Shown here piece by piece: positions 2,218 to 17,718 of a stretch of 21,364 bases of DNA; position 1 is the first letter of the stretch; each line of letters opens with the position of its first letter. The DNA is from a virus. A program made the position numbers and the translations under genes. Location of the stretch: the IMG/VR virus record IMGVR_UViG_3300028025_004646, positions 1-21,364 of that record. The stretch is one strand, 5' to 3'. The notes beneath the pieces were generated by a model that did no database searches, was not told the origin of the DNA, and saw only the letters and a list, made by a program, of their open reading frames with translations.

Positions 2218-2819
2218 AACCTACCGAGAAAACAGTATTGGACGCACTTCGATCAACGACTCTTGCTTATCTATCAACAGCGGAGTTCGCTGAGGTCGAA
2301 AAGGCAGTCGAACGTGACGGAATACTCAATGTCACTGGTAGTGTGCGTAAACTATTAGAAGTAGCAGTTCAAAAGCACGGATCTCACAATCAGGCTTCGC
2401 ACGGCGGAAAAGGTGGCGGTCGTAAAGGCGGAGGTGGCGGTGGAACTGCGCCTAGTGATAACGACACAGGAACAGGACGCGACGATAAATTGGTCGATCA
2501 ACTCGCCACAGATGTTGATAAAGTAAAAGAAGACCTCGACGCATTCTATGATGATTTAGATGATGGGGATTCCGACGATGATGTAATTGGCAGAGTCAGT
2601 GACTCTTTAGACGCTTCAACAAGAAATATGGAGTCAGCGATGAATACCACGGACATTGATAAGCACACAGCATTGATGGACACAGCAGAAGGTCACTTGA
2701 GAGATGCTGCAAGTGCTGCTTCATTTGGGTCTAAAGATTTGCAAGATTCATTTAAGCGACCTTTAGAGCGATTAGCCGACGAAGCAAACTCTTATTTACT
2801 TACATTGGATGATGATTGA
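2214..2819 (+). CDS. hypothetical head-region protein with HGSHNQASHGG motif, 201 aa
   Basis: The ATG overlaps the protease stop (ATGA), indicating translational coupling. Residues 1-50 look helical. Residues 54-78 hold KHGSHNQASHGG followed by a Gly/Lys/Arg-rich stretch, then an acidic Asp-rich helical region to the end (DDKLVDQLATDVDKVKEDLDA, DDLDDGDSDDD). HxxH(N/D)QxxHG motifs are common in phage portal, MuF and protease proteins, but their function is not known to me. The same motif recurs in the next gene. A scaffold-like or assembly-adaptor role is inferred from composition and position only. Confidence 0.72.
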   Translation: MKPTEKTVLDALRSTTLAYLSTAEFAEVEKAVERDGILNVTGSVRKLLEVAVQKHGSHNQASHGGKGGGRKGGGGGGTAPSDNDTGTGRDDKLVDQLATDVDKVKEDLDAFYDDLDDGDSDDDVIGRVSDSLDASTRNMESAMNTTDIDKHTALMDTAEGHLRDAASAASFGSKDLQDSFKRPLERLADEANSYLLTLDDD

Positions 2820-2947
2820 TGGCAATTTTCTTAGGTGACTACTCGATCCACGGTAAAAGAGCGTCCGTAGAAGAAGAATTAGCAAAACACGGATCGCATA
2901 ACCAAGCCTCGCACGGAGGCAAGGGCGGTGGTCGCAAAGGTGGCGGC
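2373..2947 (+). repeat. duplicated KHGSHNQASHGG coding segment (2373-2435 and 2885-2947)
   Basis: Two 63-base segments in adjacent genes code for the same 21 residues, but differ at many third codon positions (for example TCTCACAAT against TCGCATAAC). Protein identity is kept while DNA differs, so the peptide is under selection and not a recent copy. Confidence 0.8.
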
Positions 2948-3145
2948 ACTTATGACGACAGTAAGTTTAATCCTGATGATTCCGAAGGTGAAGATTCGAT
3001 CGAAGACAAGAACCCAAAAACTCCAACAAAATTACCGCGCAGAATCGATGACTCCGAGGAGGAGTACGAAGAATTAGACGCAGACGATCCAAAATGGATG
3101 GATGATATGGACATTATCCGCCCGCCGAAAAGAAAAAGGAAGTAA
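2819..3145 (+). CDS. small acidic protein sharing an N-terminal leader and HGSHNQASHGG motif with its neighbours, 108 aa
   Basis: I chose the ATG at 2819, which overlaps the previous stop as TGATG, rather than the TTG at 2816. The ATG gives MAIFLGDYSIHGKR, nearly the same as the N-terminus of the following gene (MAIFLGDYNIFGKR). Residues 23-43 repeat the KHGSHNQASHGG plus Gly/Lys/Arg block of the preceding gene. The rest is acidic and low-complexity (DDSEEEYEELDADD) and ends in a basic RPPKRKRK tail. The protein looks like a mosaic of pieces from both neighbours, consistent with unequal duplication. Function unknown; disordered virion or scaffold-accessory protein is the best guess. Confidence 0.7.
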   Translation: MAIFLGDYSIHGKRASVEEELAKHGSHNQASHGGKGGGRKGGGTYDDSKFNPDDSEGEDSIEDKNPKTPTKLPRRIDDSEEEYEELDADDPKWMDDMDIIRPPKRKRK

Positions 3146-5586: not shown

Positions 5587-6564
5587 ATGCCACAGCCAAA
5601 TATCAATTCAGTTCACGTTGATGCGATCCTGACCAACATCTCGATCGGTTATCTACAGAACCAAGACTCATTCATCGCAGATAAGGTATTCCCAGTAGTA
5701 CCTGTCGATAAGAAGTCAGACAAGTTCTTCACATATACCAAGAATGATTGGTTCCGCGACGAGGCTCAACGCCGTGCCGATGGAACAGAATCAGCAGGTA
5801 GCGGATACAACCTTTCAACAGGTACATATTCAGCAGATGTTTTCGCCTTCCATAAGGACGTAGGCGATCAGACAGTTGCTAACGCAGATGCTCCTTTGAA
5901 TCCTCTACGCGAAGCAACCGAGTTTGTAACTCGCCGTTTGCTTCTCCGCAAGGAAATCCAGTTCGTTTCTGACTTTTTCACCACAGGTGTATGGGCAGAC
6001 GATGTAACAGGTGTCGCAGGAACTCCATCAGCAGGTGAGACAAAGCAGTGGTCAGATTATTCATCTTCTGATCCAATCAATGACATTGAGGCTGCTAAGT
6101 CAGAGATTCTTGGAAATACAGGAATGGAAGCAAATACCCTAGTTCTAGGATATGAAGTTTTCCGTCAACTCAAGAATCACCCAGATCTAGTTGATCGCAT
6201 TAAGTACACATCAAGCAACACAATCACCGAAGATATGCTTGCTCGTATGTTCGATCTCGATCGTGTTCTTGTCGCTAAGGCAGTAAAGGCAACGAACAAC
6301 GAAGGTGCAGCCGAGGCGTATTCATTCGCTTACGGTAAGTCAGCACTTCTCGCACACGTTGCTTCTGCTCCTGGATTGCTAACCCCTTCTGCTGGATACA
6401 CCTTCTCTTGGACTGGTGTTTCAGGCGGAATCGGATCAACAATCGGAGTATCTTCATTCCGTATGGAGTCACTCAAGGCAGAGCGTGTTGAAGCCGAAAT
6501 GGCATTCGATAACAAGGTTATCGGTGCAGATCTTGGCTACTTCTGGACATCAATCGTCGCTTAA
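5587..6564 (+). CDS. major capsid protein, 325 aa
   Basis: The length and sequence fit an HK97-fold major capsid protein. Features include an N-terminal region NINSVHVDAILTNISIGYL, ADKVFPVVPVDKKSDKFFTY, an E-loop-like stretch around residues 50-80 (WFRDEAQRRADG), FAFHKDVGDQTVANADAPLNP, and the VTRRLLLRKEIQFVSDFF helix of the capsid spine. The middle (LVLGYEVFRQLKNHPDLVDRIKYTS) and the C-terminal FSWTGVSGG segment also match this type. It is the most abundant virion protein. AGGAG upstream at 5572-5576 serves as ribosome site. It is followed directly by a strong terminator. Confidence 0.9.
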   Translation: MPQPNINSVHVDAILTNISIGYLQNQDSFIADKVFPVVPVDKKSDKFFTYTKNDWFRDEAQRRADGTESAGSGYNLSTGTYSADVFAFHKDVGDQTVANADAPLNPLREATEFVTRRLLLRKEIQFVSDFFTTGVWADDVTGVAGTPSAGETKQWSDYSSSDPINDIEAAKSEILGNTGMEANTLVLGYEVFRQLKNHPDLVDRIKYTSSNTITEDMLARMFDLDRVLVAKAVKATNNEGAAEAYSFAYGKSALLAHVASAPGLLTPSAGYTFSWTGVSGGIGSTIGVSSFRMESLKAERVEAEMAFDNKVIGADLGYFWTSIVA

Positions 6565-6629: not shown

Positions 6630-7070
6630 ATGGCTGTAAACCTTATTACAAAAGGCAACGCAAAAGTAGGACAGTTGACTGTTGCTCAAGACCTTCAAGT
6701 TCGCGACGATATTTATGTCGCAGGACATCTCGGACTAGATGTTTCAGTTAACAACATCACAGATGGTGCTTCAATGGCATTTACAGCGGCTCAACTGCTT
6801 GCTGGAATTGTTACAGCGACACCAACCGCTGCTCGTACACTTTCTGCACCAACAGCAGCGACACTTATCGCAGCAGTTACACCTGCAACAGCAGTAGGTA
6901 GCGGATACGAGTTCACAGTAATCAACCTTGCTAGTGCTACTCACGTTCTCACACTTGGAACTGCAACAGGAACAACAATCGTTGGTCTAGCAACAATCCA
7001 GCCTGCAACATCAGCAACATTTGTTGCTCGTATTGCTTCCAGTTCAGCAGTAGTTATCTACCGAAAGTAA
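6630..7070 (+). CDS. beta-rich virion protein, head-fibre/decoration-like, 146 aa
   Basis: It begins MAVNLITKGNAKVGQLTVAQ and continues with a low-complexity Ala/Thr stretch (FTAAQLLAGIVTATPTAART and PTAATLIAAVTPATAVGSG), then beta strands EFTVINLASATHVLTL and a final VVIYRK strand. The 'AAQLLxGIVTATPTAARTLxxPTA' theme recurs in phage capsid-surface and fibre proteins, where it forms a small beta sandwich. GGAAA before the ATG is the ribosome site. As the first gene after the capsid terminator it may be expressed at a lower level than the capsid protein. Exact partner unknown. Confidence 0.72.
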   Translation: MAVNLITKGNAKVGQLTVAQDLQVRDDIYVAGHLGLDVSVNNITDGASMAFTAAQLLAGIVTATPTAARTLSAPTAATLIAAVTPATAVGSGYEFTVINLASATHVLTLGTATGTTIVGLATIQPATSATFVARIASSSAVVIYRK

Positions 7071-7074
7071 TCCA

Positions 7075-7278
7075 ATGAAAGCAAAACTACTCAAGCAGAT
7101 GACCGTTGATGGCAAAACTTTGGCGTCGGGGGCGATAGTCGATGTGAGTGGATGGCGTAACGCTAAATCTTTGGAAAGTATGCGTTATATCGCGTTCGTT
7201 CAAGAAGAAGTTCCTGTGGTTGAAAAGCCAAAGGTCGCCAAAATAAAAGAAGAAATACGCGAAATCTCACTTAGTTAA
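7075..7278 (+). CDS. small hypothetical protein, 67 aa
   Basis: It starts four bases after the previous stop, so it is probably translationally coupled. The N-terminal half (KAKLLKQMTVDGKTLASGAIVDVSGW) resembles short beta-rich phage proteins found next to head-tail genes. The tail is charged (VVEKPKVAKIKEEIREI). No family is recognised with certainty. The ribosome site is weak. Confidence 0.6.
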   Translation: MKAKLLKQMTVDGKTLASGAIVDVSGWRNAKSLESMRYIAFVQEEVPVVEKPKVAKIKEEIREISLS

Positions 7279-7285
7279 TTAGGTT

Positions 7286-7305
7286 GGGCGGTCTTCGGAT
7301 CGCCC
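7286..7305 (+). terminator. UUCG-tetraloop hairpin in intergenic gap
   Basis: GGGCGGTC and GATCGCCC pair over eight bases (one G-U) around a TTCG loop closed by C-G, the exceptionally stable tetraloop type. No T run follows, so it may be a weak or factor-dependent terminator, a processing site or a 3' stabiliser of the upstream message. Confidence 0.45.
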
Positions 7306-7331
7306 GCCTAGTAACTCGAAAAGAGGCAAAA

Positions 7332-7604
7332 ATGGCTTTAACTCACGGAGTTGTATCAGTTGGTGCGACAGCAACATTGTTGTCGGCTGCGAATGCAGGG
7401 CGCGACGGTCAGACAGTTTTAGTGCAAAACCCGTCAGGCGGAGTGAATGTATTTTTAGGTGGCACGGGCGTGACCACCGCTTCATACGGCTATCTATTAG
7501 TTGGTGGCAGCGCATTTGCTATTGATCTACAGGCTGGTGAATCTTTGTTCGGCGTTGTTGCTTCAAGCACTCAATCCGTAAGTGTTATGCGACAAGGAGT
7601 CTAA
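7332..7604 (+). CDS. small beta-rich virion protein, 90 aa
   Basis: I chose the ATG at 7332 (MALTHGVVSVGATATLL), which has AAGAGG five bases upstream, over the TTG at 7284 that would run into the hairpin. The sequence is a compact beta sandwich pattern: TVLVQNPSGGVNVFLGG, TASYGYLLVGGSAFAIDL, GESLFGVVASSTQSVSVM. Such proteins are common among phage tail-associated or capsid-surface components. It may be a distant relative of the 9476 and 10411 proteins, but the similarity is only in overall style. Confidence 0.68.
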   Translation: MALTHGVVSVGATATLLSAANAGRDGQTVLVQNPSGGVNVFLGGTGVTTASYGYLLVGGSAFAIDLQAGESLFGVVASSTQSVSVMRQGV

Positions 7605-7606
7605 TT

Positions 7607-7822
7607 ATGGGTATCTCCATTATTCAGAATCCAGTTCCACAAGCCCTAGTTGATGCAAAGGGTGACATTTTTGTAGCGACTGCTGATAACACAGTAGGTC
7701 GTCTTGCTATTGGGGCAAATAACACAGTCCTCACAGCCGATTCTGCTCAGACAGGCGGAGTAAAATGGAGTACACCCGACGCCTCACAATCAGAAATCGC
7801 TTCACTATTTTTCTTTAGTTAG
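7607..7822 (+). CDS. short fibre-like protein with DAKGDIFVATADNTVGRL motif, 71 aa
   Basis: The segment VDAKGDIFVATADNTVGRLAIG and VLTADSAQTGGVKWSTP is a hallmark repeat of phage tail fibre and collar proteins, where it is normally followed by a receptor-binding or shaft domain. Here the protein stops soon afterwards (IASLFFFS), so it is a mini-fibre or a fibre stub. It follows the previous gene by two bases. The hydrophobic LFFF end is unusual and could be a docking peptide. Confidence 0.65.
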   Translation: MGISIIQNPVPQALVDAKGDIFVATADNTVGRLAIGANNTVLTADSAQTGGVKWSTPDASQSEIASLFFFS

Positions 7823-7830
7823 GAGTCAAA

Positions 7831-8424
7831 GTGCCGTTGCCGAATAACCTAACTACAATCACTGTAACAGGCACATATTTAGATATCGCTGGCGACCCTA
7901 TCGCTGGACAAGTAAAGTTCACTCCTCGTGCTGTCTTAAAAAATGTCACCAGTAACATCATCTTGATTAACTCGACGATCACGGTAACTTTGAATGCTCA
8001 AGGTGCGTTTTCGCAAGTTTTGGTCGCGACAGACGACACCGATGCAGCCCCGATCGGTTTCACATATGAGGTCGAAGAAGCCTTTATTGGTGGGCGAACC
8101 TACGACATTTTGCTTCCTTCCGCCACGGTCGGTGGAACTATCGATTTGGCAGATGTATCCCCAGCGCAGGTAAACGATGGAACATCAGCCCTTTTTGTAA
8201 CAGTTGCCGAATACGATTCGCTCGAAGCAAGAGTCGATGTCGTGGAAGCACTAGCAACAAGTGCAGCAACCTTATTTGGCAATCTTTCTACGGAGTTAGC
8301 ATCAGCAATCGCGACATCAGGAACTCATATAACTTTGATGAACAGTTACATCTCCGCGGTTGAAAACATCTTAGAGAACAACGGCACTATTGACGCGTTG
8401 TTATTCCCAGCCAAGGCTTCATAA
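7831..8424 (+). CDS. fibre-like protein A, shares N-terminal domain with next gene, 197 aa
   Basis: The start is a GTG with AGGAG at 7821-7825. Residues 1-105 form a beta domain: MPLPNNLTTITVTGTYLD, AGQVKFTP, APIGFTYEVEEAFIGGRTYDIL and GTIDLADVSP. The next gene begins with a clearly homologous domain. Residues 120-197 are helical and coiled-coil-like (VAEYDSLEARVDVVEALATSA). The N-terminal domain is likely the virion anchor and the helices an oligomerisation stalk, which is inference. The stop overlaps the next ATG as TAATG. Confidence 0.72.
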   Translation: MPLPNNLTTITVTGTYLDIAGDPIAGQVKFTPRAVLKNVTSNIILINSTITVTLNAQGAFSQVLVATDDTDAAPIGFTYEVEEAFIGGRTYDILLPSATVGGTIDLADVSPAQVNDGTSALFVTVAEYDSLEARVDVVEALATSAATLFGNLSTELASAIATSGTHITLMNSYISAVENILENNGTIDALLFPAKAS

Positions 8425-9476
8425 TGGCACTGCCTAACAACATCAGTACAATTACTGTAACTGGTCAGTATCTTGATTTCACTGGATCTGCCGTCGCTGG
8501 TCAAGTTAGGTTCACAAATCCGCAGTTCCTAGTGAACTCAAATGCAGATCGAATGATCGTGCCGACGACGATTACAGCGACTTTAGATAACACAGGTGCA
8601 TTCTCGGTCACGATACCGATTACGAATGACGCGGATCTATCCCCGCTTAACTTTACATACACATATGAAGAAGCCTTTATTGGAGGCAGTACATTCACTA
8701 TTTCCCTCCCCGCTTCATTAGGCGGGTCTGTTGATATTTCAGATTTGCGTCCACAAGCAACAGTATCCAATTACTATCAACCAGTTTCAGGATTACTATG
8801 GCCTTTACTCGTAGCCAGAGTCGCGCAAGAAGAAGAAGATCTCGACGATAATCCAAAACTCTTAGCGCAGCCAACTTACGCAAACTTAACCCTGTATTTA
8901 GATACATACACAAATCTTGCAACAGAGTTTGTTACATATAACAGGGTCGATGGCACAAACTTAGATCCTGAACTCAATTTTACCCAAGCAAGAATCCGCG
9001 AAATCATCGATCGGATCGCAGATCTTTATGACTTCACAGCCTCCAGTCTTGAATTGCGCGATACCGTTGGTTCAGGAACGGTCACAAGTAGCACTTATGC
9101 GGGTTTAACGGCTAAAAGAGGCACTTATCAAGGTTTTGCTAATAACACTTCACCCTCAACTTATGCTCAAGCCTCTTTGGGCGTTTCTTGGACTTATGCT
9201 CAAATTGGAACTCTTATCACGCAACTAGGTTTCGCTCTCAACGGCACAGGAACCTTGACAGATCCGTACTTGTCTATCACTCGAACAAGTGTGGATGGCT
9301 CTTATGGTGCTTTTGGCTTACAAGGTCTTACCTATGCGACTTTGGCTTCAACTTACGCAACATATGGCGCGACTACAGGTGCGAGTTTCTCATTCACCTA
9401 CCGCGATACGGCTGATATCATTCGAACAGAGGCAAACCGTGTAAATAGACTCGCGTTGATTGGAGCAAAACCCTAG
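8424..9476 (+). CDS. fibre-like protein B, 350 aa, paralogue of the 7831 gene at its N-terminus
   Basis: Residues 1-110 align with the preceding protein (ALPNNISTITVTGQYLD, VAGQVRFT, PLNFTYTYEEAFIGGSTFTI, GSVDISDLRP). The remaining 240 residues are different: a Glu/Asp-rich linker (VAQEEEDLDDN), a helical region, and a C-terminal part rich in Thr, Tyr, Ser and Gly (STYAQASLGVSWTYAQIG, YATLASTYATYGATTG) typical of adhesin tips. A shared anchor with a swapped distal part is what modular receptor-binding or fibre proteins show. Exact role is unknown. Confidence 0.72.
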   Translation: MALPNNISTITVTGQYLDFTGSAVAGQVRFTNPQFLVNSNADRMIVPTTITATLDNTGAFSVTIPITNDADLSPLNFTYTYEEAFIGGSTFTISLPASLGGSVDISDLRPQATVSNYYQPVSGLLWPLLVARVAQEEEDLDDNPKLLAQPTYANLTLYLDTYTNLATEFVTYNRVDGTNLDPELNFTQARIREIIDRIADLYDFTASSLELRDTVGSGTVTSSTYAGLTAKRGTYQGFANNTSPSTYAQASLGVSWTYAQIGTLITQLGFALNGTGTLTDPYLSITRTSVDGSYGAFGLQGLTYATLASTYATYGATTGASFSFTYRDTADIIRTEANRVNRLALIGAKP

Positions 9477-9805
9477 TGTCCCTTGACTACAAAGTTTTAG
9501 GTCAGAGTAACCCAAGTGCCACGACCAATACGAACTTATACACAGTTCCAGCCCAAAAAGACGCGATCCTTTCGTCCATAGTTGTTACAAATCAAGCAGG
9601 GACAAGCGCAACATATAGAATCGCCATCCGCCCTGACGGTGAAACAATCGCAGCAAAACACTACATAGCCTATGACCGCACGATCGGTGCAAACGCGACA
9701 GAAACACATACAATAGGCGTGACTATGGACGCAGCAGATATTGTGACGATTTACGCTTCAACAGGAACTATGTCGTTTAACGCCTTTGGCGTAGAGATTC
9801 AATAG
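9476..9805 (+). CDS. small beta-sandwich virion protein, LYTVPA family, 109 aa
   Basis: The start is a GTG overlapping the previous TAG. The protein shows the pattern NLYTVPAQKDAILSSIVVTN, SATYRIAIRPDGE, HYIAYDRTIGANATETHTIG and MSFNAFGVEIQ, recurring in phage structural regions. A paralogue lies at 10411. The compact length and strand pattern fit a single jelly-roll or Ig-like domain that may decorate the capsid or a fibre. No signal peptide or membrane segment is visible. Confidence 0.7.
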   Translation: MSLDYKVLGQSNPSATTNTNLYTVPAQKDAILSSIVVTNQAGTSATYRIAIRPDGETIAAKHYIAYDRTIGANATETHTIGVTMDAADIVTIYASTGTMSFNAFGVEIQ

Positions 9806-9815
9806 GAGAGAAACT

Positions 9816-10349
9816 ATGCCAACAACCCCAGGTGGTATTCGTTACCCATCGTCATCCGATTCAATCAACATTCCTGGAGATTTACAAAATCTTGCTACTG
9901 ATGTTGAAACCTACGTCACCGCCAATGCAGTCACACCGTCTGGGGCATATGTCCTAACAAATAAGACGATTGGCTCAACAGGTCTTCAATTTGAGGGCGC
10001 AACGGACAACGCATTTGAAACCTTGCTCACAGTTGTTGACCCAACCGCCGATCGAACAGTAACCATTCCCGATGTCACTGGAACTGTTTGTATTCTTGAC
10101 GCAACTCAAACCCTGAGTAACAAGACTCTTGCAAGCCCTACCTTTACTGGTCAGGTGACTGGGTTGGAACTCGCGTTTGCTCAAAGTATCGTTTTCGAAG
10201 GAACCACGGAAGATGCTTTTGAAACAACTTTAACCGCAGGTGAGCCAACAGCAGATCGCACATTGACCCTGCCAGATTCGACGGGAACTCTCGCCTTAGC
10301 ATCGCAAGTAACTGATTTAGAAATCACCGTGATTATGGGCGGTTTCTAA
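9816..10349 (+). CDS. tail-fibre-like protein with two internal repeats, 177 aa
   Basis: It carries the TLSNKTLASPTFTG motif typical of phage tail fibre shafts and two 33-residue repeats (codons 9990-10088 and 10194-10292) that agree at 23 positions: FEGATDNAFET..PTADRTVTIPDVTGT and FEGTTEDAFET..PTADRTLTLPDSTGT. The N-terminus (TTPGGIRYPSSSDSINIPGD) matches the start of many actinophage and other phage fibre proteins. It ends IMGGF soon after the second repeat, so it lacks a long distal domain. AGGAGAG precedes the ATG. Confidence 0.75.
   Translation: MPTTPGGIRYPSSSDSINIPGDLQNLATDVETYVTANAVTPSGAYVLTNKTIGSTGLQFEGATDNAFETLLTVVDPTADRTVTIPDVTGTVCILDATQTLSNKTLASPTFTGQVTGLELAFAQSIVFEGTTEDAFETTLTAGEPTADRTLTLPDSTGTLALASQVTDLEITVIMGGF
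9990..10292 (+). repeat. two tandem 33-residue fibre repeats
   Basis: The coding repeats at 9990-10088 and 10194-10292 agree at 23 of 33 amino acids, but differ at many third positions, so the duplication is old. Confidence 0.75.
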
Positions 10350-10410
10350 CCAAGTCTTGACTCGATTGATGTAGTATTAACCTAGCGGAATGGCTAAAAA
10401 GGAGAAATAA

Positions 10411-10728
10411 ATGCCGAATGCAGCAAAAGTATTATTCAGAGGCGCAGCAACAACAAGCGTAACGACTTTGTTATACACAGTTCCAGCATCAACCACGACA
10501 GTAATCACAAGTATCGTTGTTACTAATACCGCATCGAGCGCAGGAACATTTACCCTGTCGCTTGGACCATCTGGTTCAGAAATAGCCCTTTTTGATGCGG
10601 TTGCTATCGCAGCGGACGCAACAACCGTAATCGATCTCAAGCAAGTTTTAACCGCAGCCCAAGTAATCGATGGAGGCGCGTCAGCAACTACAATTAACTT
10701 CCATATCTCAGGGATGGAGATCTCTTAA
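10411..10728 (+). CDS. small beta-sandwich virion protein, paralogue of the 9476 gene, 105 aa
   Basis: LLYTVPASTTTVITSIVVTN, GTFTLSLGPSGSEIALFD, ATTVIDLKQVL and INFHISGMEIS follow the 9476 protein strand by strand. AAGGAG at 10399-10404 is a good ribosome site. The 61-base gap before it is one of the larger ones in this region and may hold a promoter, but no convincing -35/-10 pair at normal spacing is present. Role is the same as its paralogue: likely virion surface, unproven. Confidence 0.7.
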   Translation: MPNAAKVLFRGAATTSVTTLLYTVPASTTTVITSIVVTNTASSAGTFTLSLGPSGSEIALFDAVAIAADATTVIDLKQVLTAAQVIDGGASATTINFHISGMEIS

Positions 10729-10729
10729 T

Positions 10730-11110
10730 ATGGGTGTCGCTACCTTACCTGCTGCTGCTGGTGGCGGAATCAAATTAGTGCAACGCGGTTCTGCTGCTAG
10801 TGCTGGAACGGTCACGATCACTGCCGTAAATATCACTAAGGCGTTTGTGAATGTTTTTGGAACGGCTTCCTCTGGTGCTGTTGCTGCTTCGGCTACCGTT
10901 TCTTCTGGCACTTTGAGCAGTGGCGACACTCGTAAAGCAGGAGGTCAAGGTATTAACTTTGGAAATGGTGCTAATATGAATTTAGCCGCGACTAATCTTT
11001 CAGCAGGTACAAATAATTTAGTTTCTGCGGTAGTGCAGGGTTATCTTTCGTCATCAACAGAACTAATAGTCAGCGGTGCTTGCCGTTGGGAAGTAGTGGA
11101 GTTTGCATAA
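10730..11110 (+). CDS. beta-rich virion protein, conserved-ends/variable-core family copy 1, 126 aa
   Basis: I chose the ATG at 10730, one base after the previous stop, over the upstream TTG at 10670. Start and end of the protein are nearly the same as in the 11457 gene: GGGIKLVQRGSAASAGTVTI, FVNVFGTASSG, then TNNLV.AVVQGYLS and SGACRWEVVEFA at the C-terminus. Between them, about residues 52-92 differ (SSGTLSSGDTRKAGGQGINF). Strand-rich sequence and no membrane segment fit a fibre tip or decoration protein. Stop and next start overlap as TAATG. Confidence 0.7.
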   Translation: MGVATLPAAAGGGIKLVQRGSAASAGTVTITAVNITKAFVNVFGTASSGAVAASATVSSGTLSSGDTRKAGGQGINFGNGANMNLAATNLSAGTNNLVSAVVQGYLSSSTELIVSGACRWEVVEFA

Positions 11111-11445
11111 TGAGAACATTTATTCAATTAAAAGACGGTATCGGTTGGGCATCTGTAAATACGCCAGAAGAAATCGAAGGTGCTATTGAAGTAGAATATG
11201 GCACAGGCGACTTCTATGTAAAAAAGAAGTACGAAAATGGAGTTTGGTCAGAAGCACCTATCTTGAAGTTCGCTGAAATCGGTGATGATGGAGTCATCCT
11301 AGAAATTAGACGATCTTATTTTCCATCTGATGTTTCTGGTCCAATTATTACTCCAGAAGTTACTGGAGAAAGTAAATGGATCAATGGTGCTTGGGTTCAT
11401 CACACTCCGCCTGTTAATCAAGTAAATACACCAGAAGAACTCTAA
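11110..11445 (+). CDS. hypothetical protein between the two copies, 111 aa
   Basis: The ATG at 11110 overlaps the previous stop. The protein is small and acidic, with EEIEGAIEVEYGTGDFYVKKKYENG, ILKFAEIGDDGVILEIRRSYFPSDV and GESKWINGAWVHH; the last resembles the C-terminal parts of some fibre-assembly proteins. VNTPEE occurs near the start (residue 16) and again at the C-terminus. Being bracketed by two paralogues, it could be lost by recombination between them. A chaperone or partner of the flanking proteins is a guess from position. Confidence 0.65.
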   Translation: MRTFIQLKDGIGWASVNTPEEIEGAIEVEYGTGDFYVKKKYENGVWSEAPILKFAEIGDDGVILEIRRSYFPSDVSGPIITPEVTGESKWINGAWVHHTPPVNQVNTPEEL

Positions 11446-11456
11446 AGGAAGTAATA

Positions 11457-11834
11457 ATGGTAATTTCAACATTCCCGACCGCCACTGGTGGCGGAATAAA
11501 ATTAGTTCAGCGTGGCAGTGCTGCTAGTGCTGGAACAGTGACGATTACGGCTGTTGATATTACTAAGTCATTTGTAAATGTTTTTGGAACTGCATCTTCT
11601 GGAACCGTAGCAGCCACAGGCACTATTGCATCGGTGAACTTTGGTTCGCAACTGCAAAATCAAGGTGGTCAAGGTTTGAACACTTCAATGGGCACAAGTG
11701 ATGGAACCCCATCAAGTACGCTTTCTGGAGGCACGAACAATTTGGTTACAGCCGTAGTTCAAGGCTACCTTTCAGGCTCGACTTCGCTTGTAGTAAGTGG
11801 GGCTTGTCGTTGGGAAGTAGTAGAATTCGCTTAA
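11457..11834 (+). CDS. beta-rich virion protein, conserved-ends/variable-core family copy 2, 125 aa
   Basis: This is the paralogue of the 10730 gene, with shared blocks GGGIKLVQRGSAASAGTVTI, TK.FVNVFGTASSG and SGACRWEVVEFA. The middle is different (ASVNFGSQLQNQGGQGLN, TSDGTPSSTLSGG), though both keep GGQG and end in a Gly/Ser/Thr turn. AAAGGAAG upstream is the ribosome site. Shared amino acids are often coded by different codons, so the two copies are not recent. Likely displayed on the virion; not proven. Confidence 0.7.
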   Translation: MVISTFPTATGGGIKLVQRGSAASAGTVTITAVDITKSFVNVFGTASSGTVAATGTIASVNFGSQLQNQGGQGLNTSMGTSDGTPSSTLSGGTNNLVTAVVQGYLSGSTSLVVSGACRWEVVEFA

Positions 11835-12608: not shown

Positions 12609-13019
12609 ATGGCATTTACCTATGTTGACCCCAGTTCAGGCGATCGCGACAAGGTTCGCTTTCTCGTACAGGACACGGACTCCGCCGATTATCACTTGGA
12701 AGACGCTGAGATCACCTATCTCCTATCCACTTGGGGGAATGTTTACGACGCAGCGATCGCTGCTGCTGAGGTTATTTCAGGTCAGTATGCTCATAAGACC
12801 AATTATTCGAGAAGTATCGGCGACCTTTCGATTTCAGAATCCTATGGTGCTTCTGCTGCTGAGTTCCGTATGCTCGCTCAAAGATTGACGGCGCAAAGAG
12901 ATCGTTTGCGTGTACCGATCGCAAGAATCAATGCGCAATCAATCACCTCTACAGCCGATAAGACGGTTTCAACATTCAAGTCCGACTTCTCCACAGGATT
13001 GATGGACAACACAATCTAA
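12609..13019 (+). CDS. head-tail adaptor (connector) protein, 136 aa
   Basis: Helical protein of the size and pattern of gp6/gp15-type head-tail adaptors that bind below the portal. DRDKVRFLVQDTDSADYHLEDAEITYLLS and DAAIAAAEVISGQYAHKTNYS are the typical motifs, followed by EFRMLAQRLTAQRDRL. It opens a four-gene set in the canonical order adaptor, head closure, neck, tail terminator. It has no ribosome site, see the promoter entry. A second reading frame in the same stretch looks like a shadow. Confidence 0.85.
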   Translation: MAFTYVDPSSGDRDKVRFLVQDTDSADYHLEDAEITYLLSTWGNVYDAAIAAAEVISGQYAHKTNYSRSIGDLSISESYGASAAEFRMLAQRLTAQRDRLRVPIARINAQSITSTADKTVSTFKSDFSTGLMDNTI

Positions 13020-14354: not shown

Positions 14355-14649
14355 GTCTGCCGTCGAAGCCCTAAGTGCTGCTCTTGACGACATTGAAGTA
14401 AGACACGGCTCAGGAGTCCCTTGTGCGATTTTCCGTTTATGTCGCGTACTTCCCAAAGATGTATCTAGTAAGGTGTTGGCGACCATCGATACCTCCGAAC
14501 ACACGGCAGTTGAAATAGCCAACACTTTAGACAAGTTTCGCGAAGAAACTGGAGTGAAAATTACCGCGTTGATCGTTCAGAAGCACCGCCGAAGGTTAAA
14601 AAATACGACCACAGGTTGCTCGTGTATGAGGGAAACGGGCAGGGCGTGA
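14245..14649 (+). CDS. HTH-type DNA-binding phage protein, 134 aa
   Basis: The C-terminal part is of a type common before metallophosphoesterase genes in actinophages: SGVPCAIFRLCRVLPKDVSSKVLATI, HTAVEIANTLDKFREETGVKITALIVQKHRRR, then a Cys pair (CSC). The helix-turn-helix fits residues 85-120. The start is uncertain: ATG 14245 has GGGGTG six bases upstream and is preferred; ATG 14227 would add six residues but has a poor ribosome site. Either way it overlaps the zinc-finger frame by over 100 bases. The stop overlaps the next gene as GTGA. Confidence 0.7.
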   Translation: MTSSRNVGVAKESLRSTLPARGNSTARDVKPQTNPSKSAVEALSAALDDIEVRHGSGVPCAIFRLCRVLPKDVSSKVLATIDTSEHTAVEIANTLDKFREETGVKITALIVQKHRRRLKNTTTGCSCMRETGRA

Positions 14650-15857
14650 GTTTAGACGGTATGGATGAGGCTCTCGACAGGCTCTTGGAACCCGTCGAAG
14701 CAGGGGCAATCCCTAACCCCAATCTCAAGCCAAAGTCCGCACAGTGGCTTCCTGGAGTCGTATGGGACGGCTCTGAGGGAACGGTCACGACAAATGCAGT
14801 ACCGATCGAAGAATCCCCCGATTGGGACTCGGTTTTGCGTATTTGGGGACTGAATCCCGAAAACTTCTCCGTGGTTGAACCCGTGTTATTTAACGCTTGG
14901 GGGAATCCTGATGGAGTTCTCAACCGCCAGTGGAAAGCAAAGGTAGTCCGCAAAGGCACAGAAAAAGAACAAGCGGACATATCCGATCTCATCGAAGAAA
15001 TCAAAAAGCACAAGAAGCAACCACAGGCTGAACTTGGCGATGGTGTGTTTTGTGTTGTTCTCGCCGATTGGCAGATCGGTAAACCCGACGGCGATGGTCT
15101 TGCGGGAACAGTAAAGCGAATACTTGCCAGTATTGATTCCGTAGAAAATCGAATCAAGGAACTCCGCAAAATCAAGCGTCCCCTCGGAAAGTTGATCGTT
15201 TTGTGGACAGGCGATTCCGTTGAAGGATGTGTCGGTCATTACGAACAGCAGACTTTCGGCGTGGAACTCGACAGGCGCGATCAGGTAAAGGTTGCTCGCA
15301 GATTATTGCGTGACGCTCTTATGCGTTGGTGTAAATTGTTCAATGATGTCAAAGTAGTCGCGGTAGCGGGTAATCACGGTGAAAACCGCAACGGATCAAG
15401 CAAGTCCTATACGACTTTGAACGATAATGATGACTTGGCGATCGTGGAACAGGTATCAGAAATCTTCTCCGCCAATCCTGAGGCTTATGGTCACATAAAG
15501 TTCGCAATCCCTAAAGACAAGTTGTCGATCACCGTCGAAGCAGCGGGATGGATCTTGGGACTCACCCACGGTCACGTTGCCAAAGTTTCAGGCGCGTCAC
15601 CCGAACTCAAAATGCGCAGATGGTTGGAAGGTCAGTCTTTCGGAAAACAAGCAATCGGCGACTCGGATGTTTTAGTTTCAGGTCACTGGCACCATCTACG
15701 GGCAGCAGATTGGGGCGGGATTATGTGGTTGCAAGCCCCTGCTCTCGACGGCGGTAGTTTATGGTGGGAACAGATCAAGGGCGACAACGCCGAAGTTGGA
15801 GTTTTAACATTTTGTATGTATCCAGAAAAACGACTAGCAGATATGGCGGTACTATGA
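14646..15857 (+). CDS. calcineurin-like metallophosphoesterase, 403 aa
   Basis: All metal-binding motifs are present: DWQIG (D141, Q143 in place of the usual DxH), GDSVEG (D190), GNHGEN (N243, H244), HGH (308-310) and GHWHH (347-349). These bind two metal ions and hydrolyse phosphomono- or diesters. The actinophage family with DWQxGKPDGDG, [16 protein letters not shown] and ALDGGSLWW is recognised here. The N-terminal 120 residues are a separate charged region. I chose GTG at 14646 because of the GTGA overlap with the HTH gene; TTG 14616 or GTG 14622 are possible alternatives. Substrate is unknown; nucleic acid is likely given the HTH neighbour. Confidence 0.85.
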
Positions 15858-16265: not shown

Positions 16266-16580
16266 ATGCCCCAGTACCGAGCCTTAGTCGGAATTGACTA
16301 TCCGCCCAACAAACGAGCGGAAGCAGATGAAATTATCTCTGATCTTCCTGAAAAGGATGCCACTTGGCTTTTAGCCTCAGGATTTATTGAGGCACTAGAC
16401 AACAAAGGCAAAAAGACAACCCCAGTTGAAGAAGTAGTTGTCGAACCAGTAGTCGAAGAACCAGTTGTCGAAGAAACTCCCGTTATTGCAGAAGGATTCG
16501 ATCCCGAAGCAACAGATGGCGATGGCGATGGTTTTCTTCAAGATGGAACCCCCCACCAGCGCCCAGTTGAGGAGCAGTAA
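16266..16580 (+). CDS. small acidic protein with Ca-binding-like loop, 104 aa
   Basis: Residues 1-50 (YRALVGIDYPPNKRAEADEIIS, ATWLLASGFIEAL) match small phage proteins found next to major tail genes. Then comes a low-complexity VVEEP repeat (residues 56-75), and a TDGDGDGFLQDGTPHQRP tail whose DxDxDG loop resembles EF-hand or dockerin-type calcium sites. This tail is frequently appended to actinophage virion proteins. AGGAGG lies four bases before the ATG, so strong translation is expected. Its stop overlaps the major tail gene start. Role unknown. Confidence 0.7.
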   Translation: MPQYRALVGIDYPPNKRAEADEIISDLPEKDATWLLASGFIEALDNKGKKTTPVEEVVVEPVVEEPVVEETPVIAEGFDPEATDGDGDGFLQDGTPHQRPVEEQ

Positions 16581-17296
16581 TGCCTACATTCCGCCACGGT
16601 AAAAACACAGTTGTTCTGGCAGATTCAAATGACCTTTCGACATATTTGAACAGTGTGTCGGTGAACAATGAAGTAGAAACCCCTGAAACGACAACTTTTG
16701 GTTCAGCAGCGCGATCATTCATTGTTGGGCATAGAGATGGAACTGTTTCTTTCGAAGGTTTGTTCGAAGGTGGTACCACATCAGGTATCGACTACATTCT
16801 TCACACAGCGATTGGCTCAGGTCCAATTATGTCCGTATCAAGTGACGGAGCAGGAGTCGGTCGCCGTGCGATTCTTCTCGCTGCGGATTCCACTTCTTAC
16901 GAAGTAAGTTCTCCTCTAACCGAAGTAGTTGCTATCACAGGCGAGGCTATTGCGGATGGTGGATTGGATTATGGTGTTTGGCTTGCTTGCCAATCTGCCA
17001 TAACCACGACGTTAACAGGTGCTTCGGTGGATAACGCAGCATCTACGACGAATGGTGGTGTGGCGCATTTGCACATTACCGCTAACTCAAATACAGGAAC
17101 TACAGTTGCAAAGATTCAAGGTTCTGCCAATAACTCAAGTTGGGCAGATCTTGTGACCTTTACCACAGTAGCGATCGGCACAAAAGCATCTCAAAGAAGC
17201 ATAGTTAGCGGTTCTGTTCCACGCTATCTACGCGCTTTAGTAACACCAGCAGGATCAGGTTCACTCACCGTAAACATCGCATTTAGTCGGAGGTAA
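16580..17296 (+). CDS. major tail protein 1 with extra C-terminal beta domain, 238 aa
   Basis: The N-terminal 135 residues have the tail-tube pattern: MPTFRHGKNTVVLADSND, LNSVSVNNEVETPETTTFGS, SFIVGHRDGTVSFEGLF. Residues 150-238 form an added beta-sandwich (VAHLHITANSNTGTTVAKIQ, WADLVTFTTVAI, PRYLRALVTPAGSGSLTVNI), as in many phages where it projects from the tube surface. The adjacent gene encodes a shorter relative beginning with the same MPTFRHGKN. One is presumably the main tube subunit. Confidence 0.82.
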   Translation: MPTFRHGKNTVVLADSNDLSTYLNSVSVNNEVETPETTTFGSAARSFIVGHRDGTVSFEGLFEGGTTSGIDYILHTAIGSGPIMSVSSDGAGVGRRAILLAADSTSYEVSSPLTEVVAITGEAIADGGLDYGVWLACQSAITTTLTGASVDNAASTTNGGVAHLHITANSNTGTTVAKIQGSANNSSWADLVTFTTVAIGTKASQRSIVSGSVPRYLRALVTPAGSGSLTVNIAFSRR

Positions 17297-17301
17297 TAGT
17301 A

Positions 17302-17718
17302 ATGCCAACATTTAGACACGGTAAAAACGCTTCATTCAAGGTAGATAACTCAGGTGGAACTCTTACGAATATCAGCGATACGCTGAACTCAGTATCCTTC
17401 CCTCGTGAGATTGAAACTTTAGAAACAACTTCATTCGGATCAAGCACTCGATCCTATGTGGTTGGATTCAGTGACGCAACAATCAGTATTGAAGGTTCAT
17501 TTGATGCTACTGTTGACGCACATCTCGCAGGAATCTTAGGTCAAGAAGCCTCAGTTTCATTCGAGTATGGTCCCGAAGGAACAACTGCGGGACAAGTTAA
17601 GTACACAGGTGAAGCCTTTATGACTTCATACGAAACATCAGCAGGAGTAGGCGACATCGTTACCTATTCAGCAGAGTTTCAGGTCACAGGTGCTATCACC
17701 CGTGGCGCATTTGCATAA
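17302..17718 (+). CDS. major tail protein 2, shorter paralogue, 138 aa
   Basis: It aligns with the first part of the preceding gene: MPTFRHGKN, LNSVSFPREIETLETTSFGSS, SYVVGFSDATISIEGSF. It then goes on HLAGILGQEASVSFEYGPEG and YSAEFQVTGAITRGAFA without the projecting domain. It therefore looks like the basic tail-tube subunit, while the longer one may be a second or decorated form. GGAGGTAATAGTA precedes the ATG. A 49-base gap with no terminator hairpin separates it from the chaperone gene. Confidence 0.82.
   Translation: MPTFRHGKNASFKVDNSGGTLTNISDTLNSVSFPREIETLETTSFGSSTRSYVVGFSDATISIEGSFDATVDAHLAGILGQEASVSFEYGPEGTTAGQVKYTGEAFMTSYETSAGVGDIVTYSAEFQVTGAITRGAFA

Follow-up and report, generated by a model that had tools for sequence, protein, structure and literature searches.

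A likely host-adhesion module of many short proteins, with an exchangeable 3' half, between the capsid and connector genes of uncultured phages

The window analyzed here is a fragment of 21,364 bases from an uncultured freshwater-type phage (IMG/VR virus record IMGVR_UViG_3300028025_004646), which carries, from left to right, a scaffold-like gene, a DUF2190-type protein, the major capsid protein, a bank of small genes, a connector, a terminator, an exonuclease, two major tail proteins, a tail chaperone and tape measure genes. The bank, our subject, occupies 6630-11834, for which an initial annotation made from the letters alone had given eleven small genes; the open reading frame listing and inspection of start sites yield twelve plus-strand genes (starts in Table 1), and a thirteenth, g13, runs to 12565. 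In all, 13 same-strand genes separate the major capsid protein from the first connector gene, and the flanks are those originally named, with a major head protein (phrog_1005) on the left and connector/neck-type genes from 12609 on the right. As we will argue below, the bank, lying between capsid and connector genes, is likely to be a host-adhesion (adhesin fibre) module assembled from numerous short proteins rather than a single long fibre.

Table 1. Bank genes g1-g13 and the features that flank them in the window (aa, amino acids; TTL, transthyretin/pilus-like).
Feature	Length	Coordinates	Strand	Match or remark
DUF2190-type capsid-associated protein	131 aa	5177..5572	+	phrog_673 residues 14-134, 2e-16; Arthrobacter-phage counterpart annotated 'head fiber protein' (Kharcho gp99, Kovu gp28)
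Major capsid protein, left bank flank		5587..6564	+	phrog_1005 (major head protein), 9e-103
g1, first bank gene	146 aa	6630..7070	+	phrog_673 residues 146-242, 2e-8
g2	67 aa	7075..7278	+	kept in relatives
g3, near-universal bank protein	90 aa	7332..7604	+	phrog_30212, 9e-5
g4, tail-fibre shaft motif	71 aa	7607..7822	+	phrog_33513, 6e-14; tail fibre phrog_38058, 2e-6
g5 (TTL1)	197 aa	7831..8424	+	phrog_14726 tail fiber, 4e-22
g6 (TTL2)	350 aa	8424..9476	+	phrog_14726, 3e-21; paralogue of g5
g7, eight-stranded beta sandwich	109 aa	9476..9805	+	predicted model; directly downstream of tag-bearing gene
g8, tail-fibre repeat protein	177 aa	9816..10349	+	phrog_38058 tail fiber, 7e-19; phrog_8215, 3e-12
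g9, second g7-type protein, after tagged g8	105 aa	10411..10728	+	phrog_1276, 2e-7; g7 paralogue
g10, opens variable half	126 aa	10730..11110	+	tandem copy of g12
g11, small accessory protein between g10 and g12	111 aa	11110..11445	+	no family match
g12	125 aa	11457..11834	+	tandem copy of g10
g13, DUF6065/phrog_7084	230 aa	11873..12565	+	phrog_7084, 1e-54; PF19541, 3e-6
First head-tail connector-type gene, right bank flank		12609..13019	+	phrog_1732, 3e-15

Tail-fibre and virion-structural matches in PHROGs (the tail-fibre ones for g4-g8), models that are all-beta or combine beta structure with a coiled coil, and a hypervariable half lying between conserved genes together argue that these are fibre/adhesin-type virion proteins. 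The two fibre motifs quoted in the initial annotation are present (SNKTLASPTFTG in g8 and DAKGDIFVATADNTV in g4), and its three paralogous pairs are real: g5/g6 (50% over 109 aa, 4e-34), g7/g9 (35% over 103 aa, 5e-17) and g10/g12 (67% over 126 aa, 7e-57, with repeats in the DNA as well). It had also proposed structure prediction as a check, and the AlphaFold models of g5 and g7 as single proteins do have beta or beta plus coiled-coil folds. That of g5 (pLDDT 78, pTM 0.50) consists of an N-terminal TTL beta sandwich followed by a 66-residue helix, and the protein ends in the hydrophobic ALLFPAKAS; the g7 model is an eight-stranded beta sandwich (pLDDT 86.7), which among predicted viral structures matches virion structural proteins that stand alone as well as a domain within a tail fiber-like protein. 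The longer g6 begins with the same anchor domain as g5. Pfam returned no match above cut-off for g1-g10, a tblastn search of isolates with g1 no match, and no solved structure related by sequence to TTL, g7, A1 (the alternative allele to g1 at the first bank position) or g1 was found; the one weak match of g3 to a solved structure (E 0.03) was disregarded.

To place the bank among its relatives, we scanned IMG/VR with the capsid protein, which gave 378 encoding stretches, and examined the best 80 of these 378; the counts that follow refer to eligible relatives, that is, those long enough to show the position in question. The bank is far beyond chance, since homologous blocks fill the same slot in every metagenomic relative with enough sequence. 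The 21 complete slots, the window included, hold 11-18 genes over 5.4-9.2 kb, and the connector gene at 12609 aligns in all of them. Their 5' half is nearly constant, comprising A1 or g1 (70/70 eligible relatives), g2 (64/67), g3 (64/64), two TTL proteins (TTL in 56/57), g7 (38/38) and a fibre protein. The 3' half behaves quite differently: in 31 pairs of relatives with a capsid DNA identity of 85% or more, the median alignable share was 100% for the 5' half and the connectors, and 12% for the 3' half. In one such comparison (L008 and L015), capsid, 5' half and connectors are 93-94% identical, and the 3' half aligns over 15% only. The initial annotation had asked whether the bank varies while its flanks stay; this holds for the 3' half.

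The genes exchanged in the 3' half are mostly glycine-rich adhesin-like proteins (two in G006, for example, have 582 and 598 aa), and each has a small protein as its companion. Judged from sequence, such wholesale replacement reads as the signature of host-recognition cassettes, and the swapping of this half between close relatives, with its glycine-rich genes and their small partners, is the strongest evidence for a host-recognition role. Proteins of the g13 type recur in the variable half of relatives in up to three copies (three in L008), none of the other 20 complete metagenomic slots yielded g10, and g11 resembles, by eye, the small 'KFAEIDDxGVV' proteins that pair with adhesins in relatives. 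We note in addition that the variable half of some relatives includes sulfotransferase and APS kinase genes (L097:1411-3049, and the slots of L008 and L048), which suggests sulfation of virion or host glycans.

The slot has a different content in isolated relatives. In Arthrobacter phages, whose capsid proteins are 55-61% identical to that of the window, it holds one small gene plus one or two large ones (767 aa in Kharcho and Kovu; 580 and 279 aa in Laroye), and the Laroye slot protein is of coiled-coil/collagen fibre type, with a domain at its N-terminus, an extended helical stretch rich in alanine, and collagen-like repeats. The proteobacterial relatives by capsid protein (RDJL Phi 1, RSP, RHph_Y52 and 9NA) have 0-1 gene between capsid and connector-type genes, and since the slot is filled on the Arthrobacter and metagenomic side, it appears to be an actinophage-side insertion point for fibre-type proteins. 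By eye only, g2 of the window resembles the small genes that immediately follow the capsid gene in two of these proteobacterial relatives, RDJL Phi 1 (gp75) and 9NA (gp41). A capsid homologue (91%) on a 3.1-kb contig of an Actinomycetota metagenome-assembled genome is a weak hint of an Actinomycetota host, weak because short contigs can be misbinned. The large proteins of the Arthrobacter slot might also suggest that the bank is one long ancestral fibre gene broken into pieces by fission, decay or sequencing error. We rejected this candidate as very improbable, given that the same separate genes, each with its own start and conserved end, occur in more than 60 contigs, and that the Arthrobacter slot proteins are not concatenations of the bank families.

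A further feature unites bank proteins that are otherwise non-homologous. Several unrelated families end alike, in a hydrophobic run followed by G and one residue, as in LMMMGV (TTL1), FFLVGA (a 65-aa protein), LLLIGG (TTL2) and LFLGGM (the last gene). The strict form of this C-terminal tag occurs in 150/624 bank proteins; among the remaining proteins of these contigs it occurs in 2/504, and shuffled sequences give 0.0015 per protein. The contrast is not an independent one, because the pattern was defined after inspection of the bank and the sequences are kin. A fairer test is offered by a separate set of contigs, retrieved with the g7 homologues of two other phages, where the gene immediately upstream of g7 is tagged in 87/154 cases as opposed to 9/2424 other genes, although many of these contigs are close to Planktophila phage E7 and thus are not independent either. 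The tagged proteins upstream of g7 in this set differ widely in length and sequence. In the phage family of the window itself, 40/54 genes upstream of g7 have the strict tag and a further 10 an extended pattern. A C-terminal tag common to non-homologous bank proteins, with a tagged gene directly upstream of the g7 family here and also in unrelated phages, an isolated Planktophila phage among them, is new; no prior description of such a tag was found in the accessible literature.

Taken as a host-adhesion module, the bank could work as follows. The conserved g1-g8 would be mount and shaft, with a trimeric TTL anchor plus coiled coil and with fibre-repeat proteins; the hydrophobic C-terminal tags would attach either to the beta-sandwich proteins g7/g9 or to the segment that follows; and the swapped 3' genes would supply distal receptor-binding tips and small assembly helpers. 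Several observations weigh against this reading, beyond the dependence among the first tag counts. No virion proteomics or microscopy of this phage family was found in the accessible literature; in the window, none of g10-g12 is rich in glycine or has a useful match; only g8 among the window's tagged genes has the strict tag (VIMGGF), with variants in g4 (SLFFFS), g5 and g6 (LALIGAKP); and in pelagiphage-like contigs g7-type genes adjoin an untagged 59-aa gene, so that the tag link is missing there. More specifically, and as a tentative proposal that we regard as doubtful, a large group of siphophages from freshwater, probably actinobacterial ones, might carry the bank as a cassette-swappable adhesin organ mounted on head or neck. 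Short fibre proteins unrelated to one another would be linked there by a common hydrophobic-glycine plug at the C-terminus, with g7-type adaptors as its receivers.

Where on the virion such a module would sit is a separate matter, for which head, neck and tail tip are all possible. The initial annotation favored a head-fibre or capsid-display system; its fibre/adhesin component is well supported by PHROG matches, models and synteny, the capsid location is not settled, and the use it suggested, sticking to host polysaccharide or particles, is conjecture. Under capsid-surface display, all bank proteins would decorate the head, or form turrets or fibres on it, and make first contact with host or particles. 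The first bank gene speaks for it most directly: A1/g1 lies directly 3' of a major head protein gene in 71/71 loci with the upstream gene visible, of which 67 have the capsid gene of the window's phage family and 4 carry a g1-type domain after an unrelated phrog_283 capsid gene (the PHROGs assignment was made for L285, to which the remaining three are nearly identical at the capsid N-terminus), a linkage across capsid lineages that is shown for g1/A1 only, not for g5-g9. Moreover, phrog_673 is matched over different residues by g1 and by the DUF2190-type protein encoded directly before the capsid gene, and seems to unite, within a single family, one part resembling DUF2190 and another resembling g1. 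The closest solved match of g7 is the trimeric cement protein of phage KHP40 (template modelling, or TM, score 0.63/0.57), with further beta-sandwich capsid-type proteins, the HFTV1 turret among them, and attachment by the head has been described in HFTV1 (PMC9973310, PMC12494034) and 7-7-1 (PMC12796354). However, at TM 0.5-0.6 jelly-roll and beta-sandwich matches have little specificity, the location of a protein on the virion can be read only weakly from its gene neighbourhood, the g5/g6 anchors are sequence homologues of tail-fibre anchors, and g7 homologues occur in the tail modules of phiPsal1 (after the tape measure) and of E7 (in the fibre region). On balance we consider capsid display rather unlikely.

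The same anchors lead to a second reading, in which the bank is a tail-tip receptor-binding module whose genes have moved into the head block and whose products join the distal tail as in phiC31-type phages. The TTL N-terminus is 31-38% identical to tail-fibre or minor tail proteins of about 25 Streptomyces phages, phiC31 gp49, which is encoded after the tape measure, matches g6 at 7.5e-16, and Bxb1 tail-tip chains are among the Foldseek matches of g5. In near-complete relatives, just three or four tail-tip genes follow the tape measure, and no other fibre-type gene was found there. Yet siphophage tail-fibre genes are expected after the tape measure and tail tip genes, and the bank lies only between capsid and connectors, with none of its families outside this slot in the window or in six near-complete relatives. 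A1/g1 and g2, at the start of the bank, go with the capsid gene, and g5 has its best fold match in a neck fibre. In addition, no homologue of gp44-gp48, the tail-tip proteins of phiC31, was detected in the window's phage family; the TTL docking partner is therefore not conserved, and this comparison leaves the virion position undecided. We see a tail-tip location as a credible option that falls somewhat short of an even chance.

A third possibility is that TTL trimers form neck (collar) fibres, seated on a ring under the portal and carrying a multi-subunit chain like that of cyanophage A-1(L). The best Protein Data Bank match of g5 is an A-1(L) neck/neck fibre chain (8KEG chain a; E 6e-4, TM 0.61 by target and 0.40 by query, 16% identity), the collar of DEV is among its other Foldseek matches, and the bank adjoins the connector genes. 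As described in PMC10966104, the A-1(L) neck fibre consists of three separate small proteins stacked as beads, with a pilus-like N-terminal anchor domain. On the other hand, the likeness is structural only, the same text reports that the tip of this fibre, unlike an adhesin, did not bind the host, and in A-1(L) a long distance separates the fibre genes gp80-gp82 from the head genes, so that gene position is no guide here. A neck location strikes us as unlikely.

Other genes of the window and its relatives show features of their own. Between the tail terminator and the major tail proteins lies an SbcD/exonuclease-type gene (14616-15857; phrog_284, 8e-57), which is also kept in relatives, as are two paralogous major tail proteins (16580-17296 and 17302-17718) with a common N-terminus, MPTFRHGKN. 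At the left end, 1-540 encodes a protein end with a weak match to Alt-like ADP-ribosyltransferases, upstream of a protease-type gene. A histidine-rich motif, KHGSHNQASHGG, is present in 2214-2819 and 2819-3145 and takes the form KHGEHDQKTHGNWA in relatives (L091-L105 contigs); between the portal gene and the capsid gene, as many as six different genes have it once or twice, and it may serve as a common targeting signal for proteins that are packaged into the prohead or cleaved there. Finally, the late region of three relatives (G001, G003 and G005; e.g. L094-L096) encodes a 596-744 aa protein, with an apparent signal peptide by eye in G001 and G005, adjoining a small membrane-like protein.

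If the host-adhesion reading is correct, hundreds of uncultured phages keep a universal, swappable adhesin kit among their head genes, where host-recognition genes are not usually looked for, and gene position alone misleads the annotation of host-recognition genes; the kit would also aid host prediction for freshwater phages. The tag and its conserved g7 neighbour suggest a general plug-and-socket rule for building fibres from many short proteins.

Comparison with known systems reveals partial likenesses in each case. The A-1(L) neck fibre (gp82-gp81-gp80) resembles the bank in its short proteins and in an N-terminal anchor of what may be the g5 fold class, but differs in the distance of its genes from the head cluster, in having no detectable sequence homology and in a tip that is not a host binder; a common C-terminal tag is not reported in the accessible part of that source (PMC10966104). 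The HFTV1 turret and KHP40 cement protein are small separate proteins of the g7 beta-sandwich fold class, although the likeness is structural only and weak; for HTVC010P, no literature on virion proteins was found. Glycine-rich tips are known from other phages: in hafunaviruses such a tip and a small partner gene fix host range (PMC8651126), gp38-type tips of T-even phages bind receptors (PMC12892980), and the glycine-rich tip of Pam3 gp24/gp25 is proposed as a receptor binder (PMC9608196). The bank appears to share with T-even gp38 and the hafunavirus adhesins a swapped glycine-rich tip gene, with a small gene after it in hafunaviruses; those adhesins sit at the tips of long tail fibres, whereas the bank has several such genes in a head-proximal block. 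The phiC31 gp49 and Streptomyces phage tail fibres have an N-terminal TTL domain homologous to that of g5/g6 (about 34% identity), but gp49 is a single long protein that contains collagen-like repeats and has its gene behind that of the tape measure, in contrast to two short proteins near the capsid gene. The isolated Planktophila phage LanE43-AprE7 (PMC10202952) has a tagged fibre protein, a g7 homologue, glycine-rich proteins and a small MAHF protein in the same order; it differs in its capsid lineage (phrog_1357), in lacking A1/g1, g2, g3 and TTL, and in placing this fibre region after tail-type genes.

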